Both the position numbers and the translations under genes were made by a program. Under the pieces are notes generated by a model. The model was not told the DNA's origin and did no database searches. It was given only the letters and a program-made list of their open reading frames with translations. From Candidatus Methanoperedens sp. (lineage in GTDB: Archaea; Halobacteriota; Methanosarcinia; Methanosarcinales; Methanoperedenaceae): a stretch of DNA of 64,000 bases. Every line of letters begins with the position of its first letter. The stretch's first letter is position 1. The DNA is taken from NCBI GenBank assembly GCA_012026795.1, contig VEPM01000006.1, positions 1 through 64,000 on the forward strand. Direction: 5' to 3'. This document shows positions 48,119 through 62,027 of this stretch, in pieces.

Positions 48119-48184
48119 AAGGTTTCCATTACAACCTTAAAGGTCATATTTGTATATTAAAATGTAGTTGGTATAGTTCTATGG
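48119..48184 (-). repeat. Repeated promoter/operator element, copy 1
   Basis: About 66 bp with only about 5-6 mismatches to 53023-53088. It contains half-sites AAGGTT (48119-48124), AACCTT and AAGGT in alternating orientation, then TGTATATTAAAATGTAG. On the minus strand TTTTAATATACA would be the TATA box for the Cys-rich regulator 31-96 bp away. The gap 48089-48218 has no gene. Confidence 0.7.
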
Positions 48185-48218: not shown

Positions 48219-48959
48219 TTATGAGGATGTGTTGTTCAAATATTCCTGCAATGAATCGAAGTAATTGGAATTGATGCTGTAAATTGTGTACCTGCCATCT
48301 GTATCAGCTTTAACAATCCCCTGCTCTTTCAGATGTTTAATATGTTGTGTAAGTGTCGATGAAGAAACTCCGATTCCTTCTGCAAGGGTTTTATGATTTA
48401 TATTTTGATTACCAAGTATCCCTAAAATAATCCTTCTATGAGTATCATTCTTCAGCGCAGAAATTACTGTCAGTTCTTCTTTATTATAAGTAGAGTTGTT
48501 CAGAAAATAGCGAAGTTTTCCGTTTGTTTTGTATGATTCTATCATTTTTTCTGTTTCCATCATTTTCAGGTGGTATTCGACCGATCCTTTGTTCAATCCT
48601 GTTTCTTTTATTATCTCGCTGAAATAACTTCCAGGGAAGGATTTAATAAAACCATATAGTTTTTCCCTGTTCATATTTTCCAAAATATTTGAGCTGTTTA
48701 ATCTCTTATAGCCACCAAGGATGGGAAAAAACCTGATTAGAAAAAAAGTTTCCGGAGAAGAGGTTATATTAGTAAAACCCAACAGAATAAGAAAAAGCCA
48801 GTAAGGAATAGGTTTGACTTCGATCTCATGCACTTCCTCACCTGCTACCGGAGCGCCCGATTTATCGCTCTGGGAGGGACGTACCGTGTACTCGGTGGCT
48901 AAAGCTGTAGAGACCGATAGCAAAAAGAAAAAGCAAAGGAGGAATGTATTCAGTCTAAT
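48219..48959 (-). CDS. Membrane-anchored twin winged-helix regulator
   Basis: About 246 aa. A signal-type helix (RLNTFLLCFFFLLSVSTALA) is followed by EYTVRPSQSD and a second helix (IPYWLFLILLGFTNITS). Two winged-helix domains then face the cytoplasm: about 95-160 (SYFSEIIKETGLNKGSVEYHLKMME) and 165-240 (KTLAEGIGVSSSTLTQHIKHLKEQG). A one-component membrane transcription factor. The best start is ATT 48959, coupled to the TAG of the upstream gene (CATTAG); ATGs at 49010 and 49019 would add an odd extension before the signal helix. It shares TEYTVRPS with its partner. Confidence 0.75.
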   Translation of the reverse strand: MRLNTFLLCFFFLLSVSTALATEYTVRPSQSDKSGAPVAGEEVHEIEVKPIPYWLFLILLGFTNITSSPETFFLIRFFPILGGYKRLNSSNILENMNREKLYGFIKSFPGSYFSEIIKETGLNKGSVEYHLKMMETEKMIESYKTNGKLRYFLNNSTYNKEELTVISALKNDTHRRIILGILGNQNINHKTLAEGIGVSSSTLTQHIKHLKEQGIVKADTDGRYTIYSINSNYFDSLQEYLNNTSS

Positions 48960-49392
48960 GCTGATATACGTTAAAGTTGTAGTCTTCCGTTCCAACGACT
49001 GATACTCCATATGCCTCATACTTCCATTGTCCTGCTTCTACATAACCCTGACCTGGAACAATATCAATATGTATCCTGCCGTCAATTATTCCATCGCTTG
49101 AATCATAATAAGTTCCAATGCGGCTGCTGCCGGGCGTGTATATGGTCAGCGAGAGGGAATCGGTTTTGTCTCCCCAGTTCAGGTCAACTTCAAGCCAGTT
49201 TACACTGCTTCCCACATTTGTATAGTATGTTTTAGTCTGACCCTGTGTTAAAGAATCATATGTCTGGATAGATACTGGCGGTATTTCACCGCTTGAGGGA
49301 CGCACTGTGTATTCTGTTGTATTTTTTGCTGATACCACTGGCACAGACAACAACGCTGCAACCATAAATAAACCAATTAACCATTTCATGTT
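48955..49392 (-). CDS. Secreted PPC-like domain protein, partner of the membrane regulator
   Basis: About 145 aa. Signal peptide (MKWLIGLFMVAALLSVPVVSAK), then TEYTVRPSSG and one beta domain with SLTQGQTKTYYTNVGSSVNWLEVDLNWGD, LSLTIYTPGSSRIGTYYD and GQWKYEAYGVSV, the layout of pre-peptidase C-terminal (PPC) domains. ATG 49392 has GGTGA 4 bp upstream; the earlier in-frame start lacks this. Its stop overlaps the regulator start, so the two are translationally coupled. It may sense or bind something outside the cell. Confidence 0.75.
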   Translation of the reverse strand, partial: NMKWLIGLFMVAALLSVPVVSAKNTTEYTVRPSSGEIPPVSIQTYDSLTQGQTKTYYTNVGSSVNWLEVDLNWGDKTDSLSLTIYTPGSSRIGTYYDSSDGIIDGRIHIDIVPGQGYVEAGQWKYEAYGVSVVGTEDYNFNVYQH

Positions 49393-49430
49393 ATCACCGA
49401 AAGGGTATAACAGCAAAGGAGTATATGGGT

Positions 49431-49576
49431 TTTCTATGAAAATCACCTAACTGATTTTGGACTACCCTGAATGATTGAAGTTCGATGCATGAGTTATCAA
49501 TCAACCAAACGTTTCTACTGCTTTATTTCACTGAATCAATTTGCAAACCGAATCAGTTATGTGGTTTTCATAGAAA
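49431..49576. promoter_or_regulatory. Mirrored upstream element between divergent promoters
   Basis: Imperfect inverted arms at 49431-49460 and 49548-49576 (about 26 of 29 match). On the plus strand the right arm reads CGAATCAGTTATGTGG and then TTTTCATAGAAA, ending just before the TATATAAG TATA box. On the minus strand the left arm gives the same order just before CCCATATAC. Thus both divergent promoters carry the same activator-type block at the same distance. The 87-bp middle holds no gene. Confidence 0.65.
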
Positions 49577-49717
49577 TTATATAAGCATCTAATACTTTTA
49601 AGAAATCGTGCGGGGTTCAACTGAACTTACCAAAGAATGGTTAAACCCCGGACATCGCCCGAAGGCAAAATAAGGTTAGTGCTTCAAATGTATTAAAGAC
49701 TTGCCTGGTTTTGCCTC
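49568..49717 (+). repeat. 150-bp promoter-leader module, copy A
   Basis: 148/150 identical to 51591-51740. It holds TATA TTATATAAG (49577-49585), a predicted start near 49605, hairpin CGGGGTT/AACCCCG (49611-49617 with 49644-49650), a small hairpin GCC-CGAA-GGC (49657-49666), and a long-range helix between 49664-49675 and 49704-49715 (11 of 12 pairs). The last two compete for GGC. The AAGAGGTGA ribosome site of the metalloprotease follows. It matches no riboswitch that I recognise. Confidence 0.8.
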
Positions 49718-49748
49718 ATGGGATAAAAAATAAGAGGTGAAAAAGAAC

Positions 49749-50813
49749 ATGAAAAGAACTAAAGAAATGCAATTAGGCGCGCTACTTGCGGCATTGCTGG
49801 TAGTAAGCCTTATAATTGTGCCAGCAATAGGCGCGCAAGGAGTAAATGATCAAAAAATTACTGGCGCAGTATTTCCACCAGAAGAATTAAAAAATCTGCA
49901 CTCAAAATATAACATAACAGAAAATGATATAAAGTTTGCAGAAAATAAATTACCTAACTTTCTGGAAGGGACAATATTGTACGGAAATACCAGAGTTATA
50001 GCAACTGAAACAGGTAAACCACCAGAGGGATTCAAGGAAGGGGTGGATTACGATAAAGTAATCAGCATTAAAGAAGCAATTGCATTTGAAGAAAGTGCAA
50101 GACAAGGATATATAAATAAATATGGTGTAGACCCTGCAAATCCAAAAGTGGAAGTTGTAAATGGCCAACCTCTTCCAAAGGAAGAAGTAAAGAAACTCGT
50201 TAAGAGCAAAAAGATAGATTTAAAGAATGGAACAGATACAGAGCCTTTAATAGGCATTCTTGGTGGTCCTACTACAGGTCCCCACGCTATAAATGGGAAT
50301 ATAGATGTGATTATCCATGTAGCAAAGGATTCTGCACATAAGCCAACAGAACCAATTACTTCTGATACCACTGCTGCATTATCCCGATTTAATACAAACT
50401 TTGGCGTAACTATGAGTGAGTCATGGTTCTGGAATTATTGGGATGCAAGTGATGTTTCACCAGCAACAGATGCTTACGCGGCACATGCTGATCTTGTTCA
50501 AGATACAGCCTGGATGCGAACACAAGCTAATGATATTGTGTTGGGATGGGCGCACGACGTGAATCATAATGGACTAGCAGATTTAGACGGTTTCTTTGCC
50601 TTAGCCGCTGATACTGTTGTAGGCAATCTTGATTGGCCTCACGACAGCATTGTCCAGCATGAAATTTCCCATTTATTTAATGCACCCGATAGAGGAACTT
50701 GGTCATGGGAGCATCCAGAGTGCATAATGAATTACGAATGGGCATACTGGGGAACCAATATATGGGATACTGTAGACAGGGGAATTGTAAATGAAAATGT
50801 TTGGGGTAGTTAA
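49749..50813 (+). CDS. Secreted zinc metalloprotease (metzincin-like)
   Basis: 354 aa. Signal peptide (about 1-30, IIVPAIGAQG), a propeptide-like region (30-175, ending KKIDLKNGTDTEPLIGILGG), then a catalytic domain. VQHEISHLFNAPDRGTWSWEHPECIMNYEW has HExxH with a downstream Asp or His as third ligand and a Met-turn (CIMNY). The GAGGTGA site precedes ATG 49749; an earlier in-frame GTG overlaps that site. It is exported and probably autoprocessed; substrate unknown. Its AT-rich coding suggests transfer. Confidence 0.82.
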   Translation: MKRTKEMQLGALLAALLVVSLIIVPAIGAQGVNDQKITGAVFPPEELKNLHSKYNITENDIKFAENKLPNFLEGTILYGNTRVIATETGKPPEGFKEGVDYDKVISIKEAIAFEESARQGYINKYGVDPANPKVEVVNGQPLPKEEVKKLVKSKKIDLKNGTDTEPLIGILGGPTTGPHAINGNIDVIIHVAKDSAHKPTEPITSDTTAALSRFNTNFGVTMSESWFWNYWDASDVSPATDAYAAHADLVQDTAWMRTQANDIVLGWAHDVNHNGLADLDGFFALAADTVVGNLDWPHDSIVQHEISHLFNAPDRGTWSWEHPECIMNYEWAYWGTNIWDTVDRGIVNENVWGS

Positions 50814-50843
50814 AATCTATCCCATTTTTTTTAGAGAGGAAAA

Positions 50844-51254
50844 ATGAGAACAATAAATAAAATACTCATAGGCTTAGGGATTATTGCATTAATTGTAATA
50901 ACAAGCATTTATCTCATTGGATTATTAGTTTCACCGGGTATGGAACCGCTGCGTTTCTCTATACATAACAATGATATTAACAAACATTTAGTTACGGTAG
51001 AAATATTTGATTCTGTTAATAAATCTTTATTTAAAGAAACATATGAGGTAAATCCGAAAGATGAGCCTATATTTTCTCCTAAAATAACAGAGAAGAATGG
51101 AGAATATACTTTTAAAGTTGCTTTAGATGATAAGATTGAAAAGACATATAAAGCGGAAGTAGGTGTTGGTAAATCTGGGGTTTCCATATGGCTATATAAT
51201 GAAAATATTTCAGGAAGTAAAGACCCTATTTATATAGCGCAAACGGTTGTATGA
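50844..51254 (+). CDS. Membrane-anchored hypothetical protein
   Basis: 136 aa. An N-terminal helix (about 7-31) is followed by a beta-sandwich-like domain (RFSIHNNDINKHLVTVEIFDSVNKSLFKETYEVNPKDEP, then ENGEYTFKVALDDKIEKTYKAEVGVGKSGVSIWLYNE). It lies 30 bp after the metalloprotease and has an AGAGG site, so likely same operon. It could be an inhibitor or partner of the protease, but nothing in the sequence proves this. Confidence 0.65.
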   Translation: MRTINKILIGLGIIALIVITSIYLIGLLVSPGMEPLRFSIHNNDINKHLVTVEIFDSVNKSLFKETYEVNPKDEPIFSPKITEKNGEYTFKVALDDKIEKTYKAEVGVGKSGVSIWLYNENISGSKDPIYIAQTVV

Positions 51255-51303
51255 AGTATCTTTTCCCAAAAAAACTTCCTCATTCTAAATAAATGTCATA
51301 TAT

Positions 51304-51560
51304 GTGGTCAAAATCAAGAACAAACGGAAACTAAAAGTATATTTGAAGGATTATGATTCGGAAGCATTTCACAGGAATTGGCAGCCAAGTATCTGGGCAT
51401 CACACCAAGATGGTTCAGGCAAAATGCATTGTATCAAGAAAAAACGATATTTGCTCGATGCAAAATAAGAATACCTCTCACACCATACACAAAATTATGC
51501 TCGAATTCGAATTTGCAAATGAACAGGAGAGCAAGCAAAAACGAAGGAAGCCCTGAATAC
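51304..51560 (+). pseudogene. Transposase N-terminal remnant, frameshifted
   Basis: From GTG 51304, VKIKNKRKLKVYLKDYDSEAF runs on, and then in another frame QELAAKYLGITPRWFRQ (about 51373-51423). Together they look like the N-terminal helix-turn-helix of an archaeal DDE-type insertion-sequence transposase. No catalytic part follows and no clear terminal repeats are seen. The interval 51255-51820 otherwise contains module copy B and a short upstream frame. Confidence 0.5.
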
Positions 51561-51590
51561 GATATGAACGGGATCATATGCAAACAGTTG

Positions 51591-51740
51591 TCATAGAAAT
51601 TATATAAGCATCTAATACTTTTAAGAAATCGTGCGGGGTTCAACTGAACTTACCAAAGAATGGTTAAACCCCGGACATCGCCCGAAGGCAAAATAAGGTT
51701 AGTACTTCAAATGTATTAAAGACTTGCTTGGTTTTGCCTC
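51591..51740 (+). repeat. 150-bp promoter-leader module, copy B
   Basis: Differs from copy A by two substitutions (G to A in GGTTAGTACTTC, and C to T in GACTTGCTTGG). The second lies in the long-range helix and turns a G-C pair into a G-U pair, so pairing is kept. It has the same TATA box and predicted start, and drives the second metalloprotease region. Copies are 2,023 bp apart in direct orientation. Confidence 0.8.
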
Positions 51741-51761
51741 CGGAGAAATATAGAGGAAAAT

Positions 51762-51818
51762 ATGAAAACAAATATGAAATTTGGAACAGTTAACTACCAA
51801 AGTGGGAGAAAAGGATAA
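51762..51818 (+). CDS. Possible 18-aa upstream leader peptide
   Basis: MKTNMKFGTVNYQSGRKG, with an AGAGGA site 6 bp before its ATG. The stop lies 2 bp before the metalloprotease ATG, and its last codons contain that gene's AAAGGA site. Translation could therefore be coupled. Support is limited to signal placement. Confidence 0.35.
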   Translation: MKTNMKFGTVNYQSGRKG

Positions 51819-51820
51819 TT

Positions 51821-52309
51821 ATGAAACAATTGGATAAAAGTCTATTCTTAGCGATTGTCATCCTAACATTAGCTATCACAGCATCCGCACATTTCCTTGG
51901 TCATAGTGCCGTAGATAATATGGAAATTCGCTACGGTGGAAGTACACAATATACCACAGCACAAAGTCATTCATTTAGTACATGGAATGCCCTTGGTAAA
52001 GTAAATATTGCACCGGATACGATTTGGACATATGAAGATGTTACATATGGGGATTATTATGATTCAAGTACTAATTCAGCTTTCGCTTATTATTGGTATA
52101 ATCCGCTTGGTAGCGATGATATTAAATTTAATCAATATCGATTTGACCAATTTACAACTAGCGAACAGAAAAAAACCGCTACACATGAATTGGGTCATGC
52201 ACTTGGACTTAATCACAGTTACTATCCCAATGTAATGGTTCAAGGACAATATTCATTAACACAATTAGGGTCACACGATATTCAGGATTACAATACGCTA
52301 TATCCATAA
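51821..52309 (+). CDS. Secreted matrixin-like zinc metalloprotease
   Basis: 162 aa, a minimal catalytic domain without a propeptide. Signal helix (about 8-23), ADNMEIRYGG-type opening, then THELGHALGLNHS (the full HExxHxxGxxH zinc site) near 122 and Met-turn PNVMVQG. The third zinc ligand is the His of NHS. It cuts proteins outside the cell; substrate unknown. It resembles short bacterial matrixin-like proteins, so bacterial origin is plausible. Confidence 0.9.
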   Translation: MKQLDKSLFLAIVILTLAITASAHFLGHSAVDNMEIRYGGSTQYTTAQSHSFSTWNALGKVNIAPDTIWTYEDVTYGDYYDSSTNSAFAYYWYNPLGSDDIKFNQYRFDQFTTSEQKKTATHELGHALGLNHSYYPNVMVQGQYSLTQLGSHDIQDYNTLYP

Positions 52310-53022: not shown

Positions 53023-53088
53023 AAGGTTTCCCTCACAACCTTAAAGGTCATGTTTGTATATTAAAATGTAGTTTGTATAGTTTTATGA
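53023..53088 (+). repeat. Repeated promoter/operator element, copy 2
   Basis: Partner of 48119-48184, about 4.9 kb away in the same orientation. It retains AAGGTT, AACCTT, AAGGT and TTTGTATATTAAAATGTAG. Located 50-115 bp before the Cys-rich mini-protein gene, it probably carries its promoter and a regulator site. Confidence 0.7.
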
Positions 53089-61780: not shown

Positions 61781-62027
61781 CTTTAGCATATTTATAACCT
61801 AATTGCTCTGAACGGAAGGGGCAATCCTGCTGAGGTATGCGTCGGTAGTAATGCAGGGGTGTAAAGCCATCAGGACAATACAGAGAAATTTGACAGTCTA
61901 AGAGTCCGAACTTCTAAAAGTATTGAATTCATGACCTCAAAGAAGCAATCCTTGTTTTAAAAGAAGAACCAGTTCCTATAAAATCCCTTGATATCGCCAA
62001 ATTAAAAGGTGAATATTCGATTTAATT
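61781..62027. other. Intergenic stretch with unexplained sequence and a protein remnant
   Basis: 61800-61915 is relatively GC-rich with runs such as GAGGTATGCGTCGGTAGTAA that look like part of a structured RNA or intron, but I cannot name it. At about 61930-62025 a plus-strand frame reads HDLKEAILVLKEEPVPIKS...KLKGEYSI before TAA, perhaps the end of a lost gene. No start codon or ribosome site is seen. Confidence 0.35.

Follow-up and report, generated by a model that had tools for sequence, protein, structure and literature searches.

A conserved 5'-leader RNA before secreted-protein genes of Methanosarcinales with features of a two-fold translational switch

Two copies of a leader RNA of about 115 nt were identified in a 64,000-nt stretch of a Candidatus Methanoperedens sp. 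genome (GCA_012026795.1, contig VEPM01000006.1), referred to here as the window. Comparison of homologous sequences established the leader as a conserved and covarying RNA, and likewise its position, its anti-SD relation and the set of genes that follow it. We consider it quite probable that this cis-acting RNA is a two-fold translational switch for secreted proteins, prominently including peptidases, in the Methanosarcinales; the switching itself is inferred.

The two leader copies and their promoters

The initial annotation of the window had described two 148/150-identical promoter-leader modules, which was confirmed by self-comparison of the window with 98% identity over 154 nt (49564-49717 vs 51587-51740). 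The copies differ at two positions only, with G/A at 49681/51704 and C/T at 49705/51728; of these, the second changes a G-C pair of P3 to G-U in copy 2, so that pairing inside the long helix is kept as had been noted. The same genome carries, on a further contig (G000:C2:85913-86062), a third copy with 97% identity that precedes a different gene, and in the P3 of this copy the pairing CCCA/UGGG is restored. The near-identity of the copies is due to recent duplication of the promoter-leader module, which in this genome was placed before unrelated genes. A very recent duplication, originally offered as an alternative to a structured RNA, is therefore true of the window copies and compatible with the structured-RNA reading. 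The following features were assigned:

49551..49585, + strand: promoter of copy 1, upstream element AATCAGTTATGTGGTTTTCATAGAAA and then TATA box TTATATAA, from the sequence and a homologue element at equal distance from P1
49607..49723, + strand: leader RNA copy 1, covariance-model match of 94.7 bits
49611..49650, + strand: P1 hairpin of copy 1, 49611-49621 with 49640-49650, one mismatch
49657..49666, + strand: P2 hairpin of copy 1, GCC-CGAA-GGC, alternative partner of the P3 5' strand
49658..49722, + strand: P3 and P3b of copy 1, 49664-49675 with 49704-49715, and outer P3b 49658-49663 with 49716-49722
49678..49701, + strand: P4 of copy 1, inner hairpin within P3, double changes at 4/6 pairs
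49712..49739, + strand: putative anti-SD:SD helix of copy 1, UGCCUC 49712-49717 with GAGGUG 49734-49739, from covariation in homologues
51574..51608, + strand: promoter of copy 2, TTGTCATAGAAATTATATAA, from the sequence
51630..51746, + strand: leader RNA copy 2, covariance-model match of 99.4 bits
51634..51673, + strand: P1 of copy 2, copy 1 plus 2023 nt
51687..51738, + strand: P3 of copy 2, 51687-51698 with 51727-51738, C to T at 51728 giving G-U
51737..51756, + strand: putative anti-SD:SD helix of copy 2, CCUC 51737-51740 with GAGG 51753-51756, from the sequence and family covariation

All three helices drawn at first (49611-49617 with 49644-49650; 49657-49659 with 49664-49666; 49664-49675 with 49704-49715) were found at these bases, the first of them, P1, extending further to about 10 bp. 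The last two, P2 and P3, are indeed mutually exclusive, because both use 49664-49666. The predicted leader fold was better than 200/200 dinucleotide shuffles (z about -3.8 to -4.0), and the family consensus around P2, P3 and P4 reads YGCCCnRAGGCA...RTtngctTT...taYttAa...tGCCTcngG.

In copy 1 the TATA box TTATATAA lies about 30 nt 5' of P1, and the duplicated stretch begins at 51587, inside the promoter region of copy 2. A promoter element CAGTT...GTTTKCAYAGAAAnTTATATA at fixed distance from P1 was detected in a subset of leaders from six genera (17/113 vs 1/113 shuffled); a TATA histogram covering every leader had a broad shape and gave only partial information. Since a promoter-to-start spacing of 19-22 nt is reported for Methanolobus psychrophilus (PMC5378194), the fixed distance between element and P1 would place the transcript start within a few nt of P1. 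A start near 49605, upstream of the helices, had been proposed and is supported by this spacing in the absence of RNA data; a start downstream of the helices, which would have refuted the structured leader, is not where the spacing points.

Further repeats were observed in the window. The promoter element of leader 1 is part of a 26-nt inverted repeat (49431-49456 and 49551-49576; 92%), and its copy in opposite orientation precedes a divergent secreted-protein gene (48955-49446), which suggests a transcription-factor site common to both divergent genes. Separate from the leaders is a 65-nt direct repeat with 92% identity (48119-48183 and 53023-53087; AAGGTTTCCnTnACAACCTTAAAGGTCAT...), the first part of which also occurs just 3' of a leader copy elsewhere (L024). 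A Group II intron D1-D4-7 match at 61804-61905 (+) scored 34.8 bits, just above the Rfam threshold.

Distribution and covariation of the leader family

A blastn search of 60 relatives led to about 28 leaders, whose identity was mostly in the range of 74-97%. All of them precede an SD, and nearly all precede the ATG of a protein whose N-terminus is signal-like. The covariance model R1, built from 20 of these leaders, matched in 20/34 genomes of the family to which the window belongs and in 103/186 Methanosarcinales genomes, representing 18/27 genera and four families, with up to 25 leader copies per genome. No R1 match was obtained outside the Methanosarcinales in a search of the class to which 52 genomes of other orders and 12 genera had been added, the matching genera still numbering 18. 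A strict pattern scan of about 85,000 species genomes returned members in named records of Methanosarcina, Methanohalophilus, Methanolobus and Candidatus Methanoperedens; a further one was in a MAG carrying the label Methanomicrobiaceae, and three were in MAGs of bacteria. The sensitivity of this pattern was only 28/150, and within this limit viral contigs gave no match to it. The three bacterial members (L188, L194 and L195, on Syntrophomonadaceae, Bacteroidetes and Cloacimonadota MAG contigs) showed 72-92% DNA identity to Methanosarcinales loci and were judged misbinned; these contigs are probably binning errors in public genomes. The leader at 666-815 of L198, in the MAG labelled Methanomicrobiaceae archaeon UBA207, shows good anti-SD pairing (CCTCCGG/CTGGAGG) and could reflect either an extension of the family beyond the Methanosarcinales or another binning error.

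Neither the window copies nor other members matched a family of Rfam 15, at gathering as well as permissive thresholds, weak matches being at chance level only. No description of the family was found in the open-access literature; subscription papers were mostly outside the scope, and an earlier mention is not excluded. The leader family is thus apparently undescribed.

Covariation was analysed in an alignment of 146 distinct members fitted to the model, a procedure that somewhat favours the structure. Standard pairs were present in 86.5% of the cells, double-change cells numbered 263 compared to 104 in shuffles, and the covariation score was 0.231 vs 0.146 shuffled (0/500 shuffles reaching the observed value; slid controls <=0.121). 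All of the 10 model pairs of P1 change on both sides among homologues, several of them also being among the highest-scoring columns of a structure-free coupling analysis, and covariation was found for pairs of P1, P3 and P4. Compensatory changes in P3 are visible by eye in an independent MAFFT alignment (CCGGAGGCA/UGCCUCCGG, CCCAAAGGCA/UGCCUCUGGG, GAAGG/CCUUC), and pairing of P3b exceeded within-genus permutation (0/2000). The three G-C pairs of P2 (GCC/GGC) are kept in 93-99% of the members with almost no covariation; as P2 hardly varies, it has to be regarded as conserved rather than proven. The initial annotation had asked for a covariance search, including a model made from homologous leaders, and would have been refuted by missing homologues or missing covariation. 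Such a search has now revealed a family across the order without an Rfam match, and its helices do covary.

Pairing with the SD region and the genes behind the leaders

The 3' strand of P3 is complementary to the SD region and covaries with it, as seen for CCUCUUG/CAAGAGG (L183), CCUUUUG/CAAAAGG (L132), CUCCUAG/CUAGGAG (L166), CUCCUGA/UCAGGAG (L178), CCUCG/CGAGG (L164) and CCUCAU/AUGAGG (L106). The mean score of the anti-SD:SD helix was 13.2, compared to 12.1 +/- 0.17 when SDs were permuted within the genus (0/300). The base adjoining the CCUC/GAGG core is Watson-Crick paired in 41/63 cases, where permutation within the genus predicts 32 (58/20000) and within the genome 35 (412/20000); inside single genomes the permutation signal is only modest, and paralogues do not count as independent cases. 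The SD region also pairs with certain bases left without a partner in P3, e.g. UA of CUCCUAG in L166. The anti-SD:SD helix and P3 compete for the same strand, and when the anti-SD was forced downstream in folding, fold B resulted, in which P2 forms while P1 and the P3b/P4 arm persist. The competing helices noted at the outset are thereby supported, and a covarying anti-SD:SD helix is added to them: as P2 and anti-SD:SD both share strands with P3, they represent two halves of one exchange. By this anatomy the leader qualifies as an SD-sequestering switch, since its alternative helix masks the SD and cannot coexist with a second conserved helix, except in one Methanoperedens subclass.

In the proposed mechanism, P3 is formed in fold A, leaving the SD free and translation ON. 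In fold B the P3 5' strand would close P2, and the freed 3' strand would pair with the SD, turning translation OFF. P1 and the P3b/P4 arm, which are present in both folds, are the likely sensor, where a small molecule, protein or RNA not yet known may bind and tip the balance. Transcription as drawn, interconversion of the folds in the cell, fold B as the OFF state and sensing by P1 and P3b/P4 are inferences that rest on no RNA, probing or expression data. In favour of a switch, the two folds lie near each other in energy. Without a trigger, the prediction favours fold A by about 4 kcal/mol (fold B at a median of 3.9 kcal/mol above fold A, and lower in 13/87 at 37 C), which leaves the cause of fold B unexplained. 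The SD-hiding step is also not universal, as about 20 Methanoperedens leaders with a 3' strand of the type GCGCCUGAnGAGGGC have little SD complementarity. In a Methanoperedens subclass (L149, L151, L163, L144-L146), the 3' part is CCAGCGCCGCGCCUGAnGAGGGC instead of UGCCUCCGG and an anti-SD is absent; regulation may differ there.

In 115 filtered cases the leader lies 18-40 nt 5' of an ATG with an SD, on the sense strand. This fixed position before start codons, together with conserved structure and compensatory changes, supports the structured cis-regulatory RNA suggested initially. A hydrophobic, basic, signal-peptide-like N-terminus was found in 114/115 downstream proteins vs 165/318 other ORFs under the same lax rule. 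Otherwise the 107 distinct downstream proteins are dissimilar (mean column identity 7%). Pfam domains comprised C39-like cysteine peptidases (15), the metzincin domains Reprolysin_5 (6) and Peptidase_M10 (3), subtilases (2) and one transglutaminase-like domain, and HExxH occurred in 10/107 proteins vs 0.2% in shuffles. Control of secreted proteases, as first proposed, therefore holds for part of the set, in which C39, M10/M12 and S8 peptidases are encoded by unrelated genes and nearly all products are signal-like; as Pfam gives no match for the majority of the other proteins, 'secreted proteins' is the firmer description of the regulon. The genes behind the window copies are:

49749..50813, + strand: window gene 1, secreted protein of 354 aa, HExxH motif HEISH, no Pfam match
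51762..51818, + strand: short ORF MKTNMKFGTVNYQSGRKG, 18 codons, after leader 2, its stop adjoining the start of window gene 2
51821..52309, + strand: window gene 2, secreted matrixin-type metalloprotease, Peptidase_M10, E 1.8e-7

Window gene 1 starts with the ATG at 49749, preceded by the SD GAGGTG at 49734-49739, which corrects the upstream GTG start of the ORF list. Its product is probably a zinc metalloprotease, judged from its sequence. It shares 46-53% identity with six further proteins whose genes carry the leader, and some of these have a Reprolysin_5 match. A layout like that of the short ORF exists in another Methanoperedens genome (L149, 5378-5440, with an ATGA overlap), the short ORFs before the matrixin gene having 18-20 codons, which suggests translational coupling of the putative short ORF to the matrixin gene. 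Beside a leader-bearing gene cluster of another genome (G157), PYLIS_5, a pyrrolysine insertion sequence of a transposase, was observed at L164 18982-19081.

Alternative explanations and relation to known systems

That the leader is a true riboswitch, in which direct binding of a small molecule or ion to the P1/P3b/P4 region selects fold A or B, is a serious possibility that we would stop short of calling probable. Sequence conservation within and near P2, P3 and P4, the two-fold architecture ending at the SD and the many copies within one regulon would fit; no ligand is known, however, the P1 sequence drifts freely, unpaired bases outside the switching strands are only moderately conserved, and the genes have secretion in common, not a metabolic pathway. 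The same anatomy could just as conceivably be triggered by a regulon-wide post-transcriptional regulator, a protein or small RNA with P1 or the P3/P4 arm as its binding site. This would agree with up to 25 copies per genome and the independent P1 hairpin, and mRNA-regulating trans-acting sRNAs are known in M. mazei (sRNA162; PMC3510493), but no candidate has been identified. Of the riboswitch or thermosensor type named in the initial annotation, the thermosensor is not favoured. Many long 5' UTRs of the related psychrophile Methanolobus psychrophilus are discussed as possible temperature sensors (PMC5378194) and speak for a thermometer whose SD helix is melted by temperature alone. Between 10 and 50 C, however, the predicted balance of the folds hardly changes (median 3.3 to 4.1 kcal/mol; nearest-neighbour energies only), which fails the test for a thermometer over this range and weakens that version, and conserved P1 and P4 would not be needed for it; we regard it as distinctly unlikely.

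A leader without switching, which constitutively stabilizes the mRNA or insulates the start site and whose anti-SD match is incidental because the P3 5' strand resembles an SD, would be in line with the usually greater stability of fold A and with the Methanoperedens subclass lacking an anti-SD. It appears unlikely nonetheless, as SD-flanking bases covary with the 3' strand, including some that do not pair in P3, and UGCC of P2 is conserved though partly unpaired in fold A. Hardly any weight remains for recent duplication or a MITE-like mobile element without RNA function: the 148/150 identity and the third copy before another gene could be so explained, but not diverged members with compensatory changes in 18 genera or the sense placement just before the start codon. 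The mobile-element reading was rejected on the grounds of strand, position and covariation. A transcription terminator is not favoured, no U-run being present 3' of P3 in the leaders inspected.

The two-fold translational switch, which remains our preferred reading, resembles bacterial translational riboswitches with a direct anti-SD (e.g. preQ1, SAM or TPP classes) in being a 5' leader with mutually exclusive helices and alternative pairing of the SD region. It differs from them in having no Rfam 15 covariance match and no known ligand and in being found here in archaea only. With RNA thermometers and cspA-type leaders it has in common a structure able to hide the ribosome-binding site, whereas its predicted balance is nearly temperature-independent and its conserved multi-helix anatomy lies outside the SD helix. 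Long 5' UTRs were mapped by dRNA-seq in the same organisms, Methanosarcina and Methanolobus, and a leader burying the ribosome-binding site was noted for the individual gene hsp20; in the accessible parts of these studies (e.g. PMC5378194) no common structured leader family was found described. In the absence of ligand-binding data we state only that the leader works like an SD-sequestering translational switch, without claiming strict membership of the riboswitches.

A more far-reaching proposal, which we put forward only tentatively, is a novel class of archaeal riboswitches, probably native to the Methanosarcinales, that would read an intracellular signal, set the translation of a large secreted-protein and protease regulon, and spread inside genomes to positions before unrelated genes as a promoter-leader(-signal peptide) cassette. 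To our knowledge, few classes of cis-regulatory RNA are known in archaea, and one present in as many as 25 copies per genome would rank among the larger RNA-controlled regulons in a methanogen. As the family is present in genetically tractable Methanosarcina species, mechanism and trigger are directly testable, and the answer would bear on the largely unexplored question of how methanogens and anaerobic methanotrophs decide on protease secretion.
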